Source: Streptococcus massiliensis DSM 18628
GTDB taxonomy: Bacteria; Bacillota; Bacilli; Lactobacillales; Streptococcaceae
Direction: 5' to 3'
Length of the DNA stretch: 39,576 nt
Assembly: GCF_000380065.1 (NCBI RefSeq)
Contig: NZ_KB904368.1
Span: 1-39,576 of the forward strand
Shown: positions 31,004 through 39,576 of the stretch, piece by piece
Numbering within the stretch: position 1 is the first letter of the stretch
Layout: each line of letters begins with the position of its first letter
Program-made: the position numbers and the translations under genes
The notes under the pieces: generated by a model
What the model saw: the letters and a program-made list of their open reading frames with translations, nothing else
What the model was told of the DNA's origin: nothing
Database searches by the model: none

Positions 31004-32290
31004 ATGACATCAGTTGTAGTTGTAGGAACCCAGTGGGGAGATGAAGGCAAGGGGAAGATTACAGACTTCCTGTCTGCCAATGCCGAAGTCATTGCGCGCT
31101 ACCAAGGCGGTGACAATGCGGGGCATACGATTGTAATCGACGGAAAAAAATATAAATTGCACCTCATTCCTTCAGGAATTTTCTTTCCTGAAAAGATTTC
31201 GGTCATCGGAAATGGCATGGTGGTCAATCCCAAATCCTTGGTTCAGGAATTAGACTATTTGCATGGTGAGGGCGTCAGTACGAAAAATCTGCGGATTTCT
31301 GACCGGGCGCACGTCATTTTGCCTTACCACGTCAAGCTCGACCAGCTGCAAGAAGACGCCAAAGGCGTCAATAAAATCGGTACGACCATTAAGGGGATTG
31401 GACCGACTTATATGGACAAGGCTGCGCGGGTTGGCATTCGGATTGCGGATTTGCTGGACAAGGATATTTTCAGAGAGCGTTTGGAGCGCAATTTAGCCGA
31501 GAAAAATCGTCTCTTTGAGAAATTGTACGACAGTGAAGCCATTAGCTTTGACGAGATTTTTGAAGAATACTACGAGTACGGTCAGACAATCAAGCAGTAT
31601 GTGACCGATACATCGGTGATTTTGAATGATGCGCTGGACCACGGTAAACGCGTGCTTTTTGAGGGCGCGCAAGGGGTCATGCTGGACATTGACCAAGGAA
31701 CCTATCCTTTTGTCACGTCGTCCAATCCAGTCGCTGGTGGTGTGACTATTGGCTCTGGCGTGGGGCCAAGCAAGATTGACAAGGTAGTCGGGGTTTGCAA
31801 GGCTTACACCAGCCGTGTGGGAGACGGTCCGTTTCCGACGGAGTTGTTTGATGAAGTCGGCGACCGCATTCGCGATGTTGGTCATGAGTATGGAACGACG
31901 ACAGGACGTCCGCGTCGCGTAGGTTGGTTTGACTCGGTTGTCATGCGCCATAGTCGCCGCGTGTCAGGGATTACTAATCTCTCGCTCAATTCGATTGATG
32001 TTCTGACCGGGCTTGATACCGTCAAGATTTGTGTTGCTTACGATTTGGACGGGGAGCGGATTGACCATTATCCTGCCAGCCTAGAGCAGCTCAAGCGTTG
32101 CCAGCCGATTTATGAAGAATTACCGGGCTGGTCAGAGGACATCACAGGCGTTCGCAGTCTCGAAGACCTGCCAGAAAATGCCCGCAATTATGTACGCCGC
32201 GTTTCAGAGCTAGTCGGCGTCCGCATTTCCACCTTCTCAGTCGGACCCGACCGCGAACAAACCAATATCCTGGAAAGCGTGTGGGGTTAA
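31004..32290 (+). CDS. purA: Adenylosuccinate synthetase
   Basis: PurA makes adenylosuccinate from IMP, aspartate and GTP, the first committed step to AMP. The 428 residues have the P-loop [11 protein letters not shown] at 8-18 with catalytic Asp13, GGDNAGHT with His41, and the later signatures [19 protein letters not shown] (in fact read as [16 protein letters not shown]) and [12 protein letters not shown]. The length is standard. It has its own promoter and leader and ends in a hairpin that begins inside its stop codon. In S. pneumoniae, as I recall, tadA follows directly; here 276 bases and a nuclease gene intervene. Confidence 0.97.
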
Positions 32291-32311
32291 AACAGTCCTG
32301 TGGACTGTTTT
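32289..32311 (+). terminator. Terminator at the end of purA (H1)
   Basis: AAAACAGTCC (32289-32298) pairs perfectly with GGACTGTTTT (32302-32311), loop TGT. The left arm begins in the purA stop codon. It is the first hairpin of the array described below. Confidence 0.75.
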
Positions 32312-32316
32312 AATCT

Positions 32317-32347
32317 GCGGATAAGAAGTCACATTAGTGACTTTACA
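32317..32347 (+). repeat. Hairpin repeat, copy 1
   Basis: The unit GATAAGAAGTCAC (32320-32332) plus ATTAGTGACTTTACA (32333-32347) carries a 7-base inner stem AAGTCAC/GTGACTT and tetraloop ATTA. It differs from copy 2 at two of 28 positions, both inside the hairpin. Confidence 0.85.
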
Positions 32348-32369
32348 AAAGAGCCTGAAGGCTCTTTTT
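32347..32369 (+). terminator. Terminator-like hairpin in the array (H3)
   Basis: AAAAGAGCC (32347-32355) pairs with GGCTCTTTT (32360-32368), loop TGAA, T run. It separates copies 1 and 2. Confidence 0.8.
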
Positions 32370-32374
32370 AAGTT

Positions 32375-32405
32375 GTAGATAAGAAGTCGCGTTAGTGACT
32401 TTACA
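32375..32405 (+). repeat. Hairpin repeat, copy 2
   Basis: The unit (28 bases at 32378-32405) has inner stem AAGTCGC/GTGACTT with a G-U pair and tetraloop GTTA. TGTA (32375-32378) pairs with TACA (32402-32405) across a one-sided internal loop (ATAAG). It starts 58 bases after copy 1. The short hairpin AGGTAC-AGT-GTACCT (32415-32429) follows it. Confidence 0.85.
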
Positions 32406-32438
32406 TTTTTAGCGAGGTACAGTGTACCTTATCAATCG

Positions 32439-32471
32439 GCGGATGAGAAGTCTCGGTAGCGACTTGTCCGC
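32439..32471 (+). repeat. Hairpin repeat, copy 3 (divergent)
   Basis: Inner stem AAGTC/GACTT with loop region TCGGTAGC, one-sided internal loop TGAG, and outer stem GCGGA (32439-32443) with TCCGC (32467-32471). It starts 64 bases after copy 2. The sequence has diverged, but the two-stem layout is the same, and its outer stem is different from that of copy 2 yet still pairs. Confidence 0.75.
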
Positions 32472-32490
32472 TTCTAAGCAAAAAATTCCC

Positions 32491-32518
32491 AAGTCATTGA
32501 TACTTCAATGGCTTTTTT
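32491..32518 (+). terminator. Terminator at the end of the hairpin array (H7)
   Basis: AAGTCATTGA (32491-32500) pairs with TCAATGGCTT (32505-32514) with one G-U pair, loop TACT, then T run. It lies just before the mrr-like gene promoter region. Confidence 0.85.
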
Positions 32519-32531
32519 GTTAGAAATTTTT

Positions 32532-32537
32532 TATAAT
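32532..32537 (+). promoter_or_regulatory. -10 box of the mrr-tadA unit (tentative)
   Basis: TATAAT lies 30 bases before the ATG in very AT-rich DNA; no clear -35 box at 17 bases. The upstream terminator H7 implies that a promoter is needed here. Confidence 0.5.
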
Positions 32538-32566
32538 AATTATAGTAAATAAAAAAGAGGAATAAA

Positions 32567-33469
32567 ATGAAAGAATTCGGTAATATGTCACGAAGCGAAC
32601 AAGAGCAGATTATGATTGTAGAGATTATTCAACATTTAAAAGAGTTGGGTGGCTATGCAACTAGAAAAGAGCTGATAGACTCGATAAAATTAGCTGATAA
32701 TAGGATTTCTGAGACATTTTTTGATGAAGTTAAAATCTCAGGAAGAAGTGGAAATGAATATCATCCTAGCCACTATGTATTTAACTTCGCAATAAAAAAT
32801 CTAATTCTTTTAGGTTATGTCAATAAACCTAGTCTTGCAAATTTTGAATTGACAGATTTAGGACGAAAAGTACAAATCTCTCCAGATTTTGGTAAGCAAG
32901 TACAATTTGAGGCGAGACCACTATGGAAAAACGTAAAAAATACAAACAATAAACCGAATGGAGCAGTGCAAGAAGTTATTTCTGAAATGAAAGATGACAA
33001 AGAAGCGGACTGGCGTATCCAATTATCAGACGCTTTAAAGGCTATGTCTCCTGAGAAATTTGAAGAGTTTTCTCGAGCACTGGTTAAGGAAATGGGAGTG
33101 AAAATTGATAATAAAATCGGAGTAAGCTATACTAATGATGGTGGCTTGGATGGTTTTGGGTATATCACTAGTAAAGATGACTTTCGAACAAATAGAGTTG
33201 CTATTCAGGCTAAAAAATGGGAGAGAAATATTCAAGCAGAAATTGATAAGTTTAGAGGAGCTATGGATAAACATAATGCGGAGTATGGAATTTTTATAAC
33301 TACTTCTGATTTTAGCAAGGGGGCTGTGGAAGCATCTCGCCTTGGAACACGTGTTATTACTCTTATCAATGGAGACGATATTTGTGATTTAGTGGCTCGT
33401 TATAAGTTACATGTTAGAGAAGTTGTGACTTACGAGCTGGGTGATTTTTATCAATCAGAAAGTAAATAA
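32567..33469 (+). CDS. Mrr-type restriction endonuclease
   Basis: The 300 residues have a Mrr N-terminal winged helix (EIIQHLKELGGYATRKELI, then FNFAIKNLILLGY and FELTDLGRK; about 15-105) and a C-terminal Mrr catalytic domain with the PD-(D/E)xK-like residues D191-GGL-D195-G and Q214-A-K216. Mrr-type enzymes cut methylated DNA, and no modification gene adjoins it, which fits a type IV solitary nuclease; the real target is unknown. The gene is AT-rich compared with its neighbours. It has an AGAGG ribosome binding site and ends 2 bases before tadA, so tadA may be co-transcribed with it. M7 (32585) is an alternative start. Confidence 0.88.
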   Translation: MKEFGNMSRSEQEQIMIVEIIQHLKELGGYATRKELIDSIKLADNRISETFFDEVKISGRSGNEYHPSHYVFNFAIKNLILLGYVNKPSLANFELTDLGRKVQISPDFGKQVQFEARPLWKNVKNTNNKPNGAVQEVISEMKDDKEADWRIQLSDALKAMSPEKFEEFSRALVKEMGVKIDNKIGVSYTNDGGLDGFGYITSKDDFRTNRVAIQAKKWERNIQAEIDKFRGAMDKHNAEYGIFITTSDFSKGAVEASRLGTRVITLINGDDICDLVARYKLHVREVVTYELGDFYQSESK

Positions 33470-33471
33470 TT

Positions 33472-33942
33472 ATGAACTACACACAAGAAGAAAAAGAAGC
33501 CTTCATGCGCGAGGCTTTGCGTGAGGCGGAGCGGGCGCTGAAAAATGACGAAATTCCCATTGGCTGTGTCATTGTCAAGGACGGCAAGATTATCGGGCGC
33601 GGGCACAATGCGCGTGAGGAGCTGGAACGAGCGGTTATGCACGCGGAGATTATGGCCATTGAGGCGGCAAATGCTCATGAAAATAGCTGGCGCTTGCTGG
33701 ATACGACCCTCTTTGTGACCATTGAGCCTTGTGTCATGTGCAGCGGTGCGATTGGCCTAGCTCGCATTCCGCAGGTCGTCTATGGCGCTAAAAATCAAAA
33801 ATTTGGTGCGGCAGGCAGCCTCTATGATATTTTGACCGATGAGCGACTCAATCACCGCGTGGCAGTCGAAACTGGGATTTTAGAGGAAGAATGCGCCAAA
33901 ATCATGCAAGATTTTTTCCGAAATCGGAGGAAGAAAAAATGA
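33472..33942 (+). CDS. tadA: tRNA(adenine34) deaminase
   Basis: TadA converts A34 to inosine in the tRNA wobble position (tRNA-Arg ACG) and is usually essential. The 156 residues have the zinc site HAE (His57, Glu59) and PCVMC (Cys87, Cys90). The ribosome binding site (GAAAG) is poor and lies in the end of the nuclease gene. It starts 2 bases after the mrr-like stop codon, and its own stop overlaps the next ATG (ATGA). The tadA to SRP RNA order is also seen in B. subtilis. Confidence 0.97.
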   Translation: MNYTQEEKEAFMREALREAERALKNDEIPIGCVIVKDGKIIGRGHNAREELERAVMHAEIMAIEAANAHENSWRLLDTTLFVTIEPCVMCSGAIGLARIPQVVYGAKNQKFGAAGSLYDILTDERLNHRVAVETGILEEECAKIMQDFFRNRRKKK

Positions 33943-34496: not shown

Positions 34497-34525
34497 TTGG
34501 CTTCATTCCCTTTTTATGTTATAAT
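34497..34525 (+). promoter_or_regulatory. Promoter of the SRP RNA
   Basis: TTGGCT (34497-34502), a 17-base spacer and TATAAT (34520-34525) with a TG extension. The RNA begins about 7 bases later. Confidence 0.75.
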
Positions 34526-34531
34526 AACAGT

Positions 34532-34607
34532 GGAGCAACAGTTCTGCGTGAAGTGGGTCAGGGGAGGAATCCAGCAGCCCTAAGCGAGTGTGGATTGTGT
34601 GCTCTTT
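34532..34607 (+). ncRNA. ffs: Signal recognition particle RNA, small bacterial type
   Basis: The conserved SRP domain IV is GGGTCAGGGGAGGAATCC followed by AGCAGCCCTAAGC (34555-34585), the Ffh-binding hairpin; only the small-type sequence is present (about 76 nt). GAGCA (34533-34537) pairs with TGCTC (34600-34604) to close the molecule, and a T run follows. With Ffh it targets nascent membrane proteins to the membrane. Exact ends are estimated. It lies after tadA and its coupled membrane gene. Confidence 0.92.
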
Positions 34608-34629
34608 TTATTTTGCAAAAAATTCTCTG

Positions 34630-39487: not shown

Positions 39488-39576
<89 letters not shown>

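Follow-up and report, generated by a model that had tools for sequence, protein, structure and literature searches.

BOX repeats were discovered in the early 1990s, and whether they are parasites or regulators is a long-standing debate. REP/BIME palindromic repeats are hairpins with a conserved short 5′ flank that cluster at gene ends; the array described here, located behind purA, resembles them in all these respects, and differs in having two hairpin types per module. A closer relative is the BOX of S. pneumoniae and S. mitis, organised as boxA-boxBn-boxC, where each of the tandem boxB subunits is made of a T hairpin, a GGTTGYRGATAGAA linker and an R hairpin, the same organisation as that of the array. 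Croucher 2011 (PMC3049150) places BOX in S. pneumoniae and S. mitis, and related families (boxA-boxF) in S. suis, describes it as nearly absent from S. sanguinis, and states that other species had not received a thorough de novo search. The same paper counts 36 cases in which BOX provides a stop codon, and argues that pneumococcal BOX is parasitic.

The array lies in a 39,576-nt stretch of the genome of Streptococcus massiliensis DSM 18628 (hereafter the window), between the purA stop codon and a gene for a Mrr-type nuclease. It consists of three copies of a 58-59 nt module (32288-32468), followed by a separate terminator, T4. Within each module, a conserved linker with the core TGYRGATRR leads from a terminator-like hairpin, T, to a second one, R. 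We read the array, with a probability of roughly 0.6, as three boxB-like modules, related to BOX and arranged in tandem at the 3′ terminus of purA, with the stop codon provided by the first hairpin and one or two terminators among the structures. The features are as follows:

31004..32290, + strand: purA (adenylosuccinate synthetase), 428 aa; Pfam PF00709, E 3.8e-192, and C-terminus compared with relatives.
32285..32315, + strand: first hairpin including its base; the last Gly codon GGT and the stop TAA pair with TTA ATC.
32288-32312, + strand: T1, an 11-bp hairpin, terminator-like in sequence (UUUU).
32288..32346, + strand: module 1 (T1 32288-32312, linker 32313-32325, R1 32326-32343), from covariance models.
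32347..32404, + strand: module 2 (T2 32347-32368 with U tract, linker to 32383, R2 hairpin 32384-32401), from covariance models.
32410..32468, + strand: module 3 (T3 32415-32429 without U tract, linker to 32447, R3 32448-32465), from covariance models.
32472..32482, + strand: TTCTAAGCAAA, a possible remnant of an ancestral purA end, from its likeness to array-less purA ends of the same genus.
32491..32514, + strand: T4, an ordinary intrinsic terminator 3′ of the array and outside any module; fold −11.3 kcal/mol, flagged by the terminator scan.

The seven hairpins counted between purA and the nuclease gene in the initial annotation were all recovered, within 32288-32514, and the strand from 32285 to 32530 folded at −97 kcal/mol, compared with −54.6 ± 4.7 kcal/mol for shuffled versions (z = −9.1; 0 of 200 as good). 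Three of the hairpins had been recognised as copies of one unit; this was borne out, since all three R copies matched the 24-base pattern GATRAGAAGTCNNNNTAGNGACTT exactly, with 0.00 matches expected in the window. No exact R copy was found elsewhere in the genome, the purA unit thus being single-site as an exact pattern; when three mismatches were allowed, one extra genome match appeared, and a backward control pattern likewise rendered one. Near-exact matches (one or two mismatches) in other genomes, of the form GATAAGAAGTCTTGGTAGAAACTT, were discarded as looking like chance; the only one inspected (L008) falls inside a coding region, which we take to be carA. The inner stem, given as AAGTC/GACTT, was real but longer than described, reaching 7 bp in copies 1 and 2 (AAGTCAC/GTGACTT and AAGTCGC/GTGACTT). 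As for the four alternating hairpins regarded as unrelated to the unit, only the fourth (32491-32514) turned out to be separate; the first three each form the T half of a module and keep a constant spacing to R.

The extent of the unit was found by a DNA search of relatives, which led to arrays located 3′ of other genes. The same T-linker-R order, with fixed distances, was present in arrays behind sufB in three genomes (L029-L031); the order was also found behind an ABC-transporter gene in a fourth (L036), and 11 units aligned gap-free over 59 columns. Two covariance models were used, R1 and R2. Module 1 scored 78.5 bits with the R1 model and 72.4 bits with the R2 model; the values were 57.9 bits with R1 and 52.4 bits with R2 for module 2, and 63.1 bits with R1 and 50.2 bits with R2 for module 3, all three units being within the training set of R1. 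An unfitted MAFFT alignment of the 11 units had 90.9% of its cells paired, with changes on both sides in 10 of the 16 pairs, while the slid controls had 33-51% paired and 0 of 500 shuffles reached the observed values. Among 125 distinct rows, drawn from the best 150 of 263 matches, 93.6% were paired (98.3% in the R helix) and changes on both sides occurred in 15 of the 16 pairs; this second alignment is biased towards the model to which it was fitted, and each of the two alignments consists of related sequences from which the structure itself was derived. Both stems covary strongly over the genus, compensatory changes preserving their pairing. The same does not apply to the outer stem of R, which had been proposed to be conserved as RNA structure on the basis of copies 2 and 3. 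Outer pairs can indeed be written in those two copies, but at least four were possible in 80 of 119 distinct units compared with a mean of 80.6 when tails were swapped (without G-U pairs, 20 compared with 22.9 in the permutation), i.e. no better than chance across the family.

A mobile repeat was one of the origins suggested in the initial annotation, and the BOX-type identity of the module supports it. Genome G029 carries BOX with tandem boxB (L042, L351); the boxB of L351 reads TCAAAACACTGTTTTGAGGTTGTGGATAGAACTGACGAAGTCAG, has the same layout as the purA module and, over the length of the probe, is one base off the BoxB consensus probe printed in PMC2444020. The modules at purA are of the tandem boxB type (T hairpin, GNTGYRGATARRA linker, R hairpin) by layout and linker, while their stem sequences differ. 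They also provide a gene with its stop codon, as some copies of pneumococcal BOX do (Croucher 2011, PMC3049150). In contrast to BOX, the array has no boxA or boxC around it, its module is 58-59 nt rather than 45 nt long, its T hairpin has a U tract, and it sits at the stop codon of a few genes. On inspection by eye, boxA and boxC were not seen beside the array, which has the purA coding sequence on one side and 32469-32490 plus T4 on the other; the flanks were, again by eye, unlike those of BOX copies L347-L356, and neither terminal inverted repeats nor a target-site duplication were seen at 32288 or at about 32471. With no boxA or boxC seen, the purA array is not BOX in the strict sense; it is built from the same kind of module and occupies an unusual, recurrent position. 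The BOX-type families of S. suis (boxA-boxF; PMC3049150) offer a further likeness: genome G115 has tandem modules of the same layout with a 60-nt spacing, although their match to the S. suis families is a guess and, unlike the purA array, the G115 copies are interspersed and lie in either orientation.

At E ≤ 0.01 per genome, a threshold at which about 3 chance matches are expected, the R1 model found the module in 248 of the 284 genomes of Streptococcus, many of the best E-values being weak, near 1e-3. In an order-wide sample, matches were obtained in 17 of 118 genomes, 16 of them Streptococcus and the other at E 0.0055; counted by genus, 2 of 42 matched. Genome G115 had 96 matches at E ≤ 0.05, several of them in tandem with 60-bp spacing. 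The genome under study had 13 at the same threshold, including weaker copies (C2, C4, C8, C13, C35, C39 and C45) that belong to a sequence type other than that of the purA array. These BOX-like copies (L338-L344, corresponding to C13, C45, C8, C39, C2, C4 and C35) form a second, interspersed type; four of them (L338-L341) have the T hairpin TCCAATAGTCTGGGAGACTATTGGA, and several interspersed copies lie near GGGAGTGGGACAG ... TCCCACCCCC. The T-type palindrome AACAGTCCNNNGGACTGTT was present in 12 of 36 genomes of the same genus and in 0 of 23 sampled genomes outside it, with 30, 17 and 11 copies in G020, G014 and G016, respectively.

The position of the arrays relative to genes was then compared between two sets of loci. 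The best 150 of the 263 matches formed 91 arrays in 91 of 95 sources, and the nearest upstream frame was on the same strand in 91 of 91. The upstream genes were livF (56), sufB (20), purA (7), prfC (4) and others (4); these are presumed identities, assigned from the sequences, Pfam having been run for the purA of the window only. The first module found began at the stop codon in 84 of the 87 arrays at livF, sufB, purA and prfC. With G-U pairs allowed, all three bases of the stop paired with the distal end of T1 in 83 of these 84 anchored arrays (TAA/TTA, TGA/TCA or TAG/CTA), and the last base of the codon before it was also paired in 79; the five exceptions comprised four prfC cases and one array that the script had placed in another register. 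The 87 arrays contained 35 distinct T1 sequences, 31 of which were free of mismatches; hairpin length was optimised by the script, a procedure that favours pairing, and orthologues do not count as independent. When each distinct sequence was counted once, four or more consecutive T occurred in 29 of the 36 first T hairpins of anchored arrays and in 35 of 43 internal ones, compared with 5 of 42 interspersed ones (three genomes).

The interspersed set comprised 40 chosen loci from three genomes (20 from G115, its purA and livF arrays being left out, 7 from the genome under study and 13 from G029). Matches were found in 39, one of which was a livF array, in register, and was set aside. In the remaining 38 the upstream gene was on the same strand in 20 cases and on the opposite strand in 18, and none started at a stop codon, one copy overlapping the last 23 nt of a frame. 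Both sets were picked by the score of a model trained on purA and sufB units, so that the first is enriched for anchored arrays. The solid part of the comparison is that four gene ends carry arrays in register across genomes. Anchoring at stop codons as a general property of T palindromes was rejected: in a check covering 41 AACAGTCCNNNGGACTGTT palindromes at 40 loci of G014, G020 and G022, and the stops of frames of at least 80 codons, only 3 of the 41 copies started exactly at a stop, and 6 of 41 had any such stop nearby, compared with 9.4% at random positions. The covariance-model search that had been proposed with the initial annotation returned many matches, compensatory changes and a recurrent position near terminators.

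The frames downstream of the arrays fell into 22 clusters, which indicates that the array goes with the upstream gene. The connection with the nuclease that had been suggested did not hold, since a nuclease lay downstream in the window only, and among the seven purA-linked arrays that of the window alone precedes one. The nuclease gene (32567-33469; Pfam Mrr_cat, weak Mrr_N) is located between purA and a gene that we take to be tadA, ending 2 bp before it; in the S. mitis record L060, tadA directly follows purA with no nuclease gene between them. Elsewhere, the window includes the Streptococcus sRNA SpF25 (141-243), the bacterial small SRP RNA (34522-34616) and the start of a 16S rRNA gene (39488-39576) at the contig end. 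The sequence TTTTGTTGTAGAAAAAA recurs near many contig ends of this genome, which suggests a repeated element that breaks the assembly.

A scan of purA covered 45 loci besides the window, 34 of them from this genus (partly from the same species). Modules were present in one of the 34 (G010) and absent from 33. In the window the PurA C-terminus reads ...ESVWG-stop, the stop codon being triplet 1 of the array, and all seven carriers of a purA array end in ESVWG. The 33 array-less proteins of the same genus were two residues longer in 18 cases, one longer in 5, and of the same length but ending in ESVWS in 10; the best named match of the PurA of the window was that of S. cristatus (95%). The TTCTAAGCAAA that follows the array resembles TTATAAGCAA[AG] at the purA end of 4 of the 33 array-less loci (L058, L263, L264 and L271). 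A first-order Markov simulation put the chance of a similar word at 0.0019 for a distance of up to 20 nt and at 0.018 for up to 100 nt, for a word that was picked after the fact and has one further near-match elsewhere in the window. The longer array-less ends and the possible remnant would fit, without proving it, an insertion that brought its own stop codon. Homology of the 3′ flank of the array (98 nt, including T4) to the purA 3′ flank of 14 relatives was not established: the observed score was reached by 1 to 23 of 300 shuffles, and the sole printed alignment lay outside T4. In the genome under study no module was found at the ends of livF and sufB, the two genes checked. Arrays therefore come and go, and their absence from these two ends and from 33 of 34 purA loci implies that the element is dispensable at each site.

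Tandem intrinsic termination at the gene end is the best-supported function predicted for the array. Read by sequence, T1, T2 and T4 have a U tract and would fit the pattern of a GC stem followed by such a tract, which T3, lacking it, does not. In 32150-33600 the terminator consensus scan flagged two sites, T4 and, unexpectedly, the R hairpin of module 2, with 1.1 expected by chance; T1 and T2 were not among them, which may be due to the pairing of their U tract. By a looser measure (at least 5 T in 7 nt) 114 of 119 T hairpins were positive, as were 38 of 119 R hairpins, so that some of the latter, including that of module 2, could resemble terminators. The suggestion that these are terminators with a conserved RNA structure gained support from the genus-wide covariation and from the recurrence at gene ends with U tracts. 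T1 and T2 may act as intrinsic terminators right after the stop codon, with T4 serving as a further one, while the R hairpins may protect or process the 3′-end of the transcript, or may be a leftover of the mobile origin of the module. The number of modules varies between arrays, as if these grew and shrank by whole modules, and similar arrays capping a few other genes probably help to end the transcript of the gene.

Intrinsic terminators near stop codons are associated with runaway transcription in Firmicutes, and the array shares with them a GC stem and a U tract at the gene end. It is unlike them in that the stop lies inside the stem and covaries with it, and in that the terminator is repeated together with a second hairpin type. 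In B. subtilis, terminators are reported to follow stop codons at a distance of a few nucleotides (Johnson 2020, cited in the review PMC7858274). According to PMC4824070, an E. coli terminator that sits several base pairs beyond a gene is subject to almost complete repression; termination at the array would thus require RNA polymerase to run ahead of the ribosome in streptococci, which we infer to be the case.

The main rival to this interpretation is persistence without function, i.e. that the array is a purely parasitic BOX-type repeat, tolerated near gene ends, whose hairpins have a part in transposition or in the recognition of single strands and are of no use to purA. The interspersed copies of the same module, which disregard the orientation of the upstream gene (20 on the same strand and 18 on the opposite one), are what such an element would leave, some of those in the genome under study sitting between GGGAGTGGGACAG-like and TCCCACCCCC-like flanks; the lack of an array at 33 of the 34 further purA loci scanned within the genus, and at both livF and sufB in the genome under study, points the same way, as does the case made for pneumococcal BOX in Croucher 2011 (PMC3049150), with its 36 stop codons. 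It does not, however, account well for U tracts that are present in anchored arrays and missing from most interspersed copies, for the start at the stop codon in 84 of 87 four-gene arrays with compensated stop-codon changes, or for the livF arrays at 56 of 91 loci, which imply that the livF site has been kept for long. We therefore regard a purely parasitic array as rather unlikely.

The linker raises a different possibility, namely a trans-acting or protein-bound RNA in which linker and R hairpin bind a streptococcal RNA-binding protein or processing enzyme and the T hairpins set the 3′-ends. The linker is unpaired in the model, has a length of 15 nt in 115 of 119 distinct units (16 nt in two, the other two being script artefacts) and is conserved, with the consensus TARKYTGYRGATRRR over the 119, while the stems change and yet pair. 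No Rfam family, however, matched the array above its gathering score (the best sub-threshold one was ncr1015, E 1.4), and linker conservation could stem from a mobile origin, which makes a bound RNA improbable. Very improbable is that DNA processes alone (template switching between arms, which could keep palindromes perfect without selection on RNA, and gene conversion between modules) mimicked compensatory change with no RNA function behind it: the 31 mismatch-free T1 stems of 35 are near-perfect palindromes and modules within one array are similar, but the linker is conserved though non-palindromic, and the difference in U tracts between anchored and interspersed copies is left unexplained.

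The reading of the purA array as boxB-like modules that supply the stop codon and terminators can be extended to a genus-wide 3′-end RNA device of Streptococcus, in which a terminator stem containing the last sense codon and the stop is followed by linker-R repeats that bind a common factor, BOX being its mobile offspring; we consider this extension speculative and unlikely. If true, boxB would have a conserved core that acts as an RNA-recognition module rather than as selfish filler. The covariance model found the boxB-type module in most sampled genomes of the genus, whereas PMC3049150 reported hardly any BOX beyond S. pneumoniae, S. mitis and, for a related form, S. suis. The model also separates interspersed copies from the arrays that begin at the stop codon of a small number of genes and that account for most of the U tracts, and livF, sufB, purA and prfC are concrete loci at which a function of BOX-type modules can be tested.
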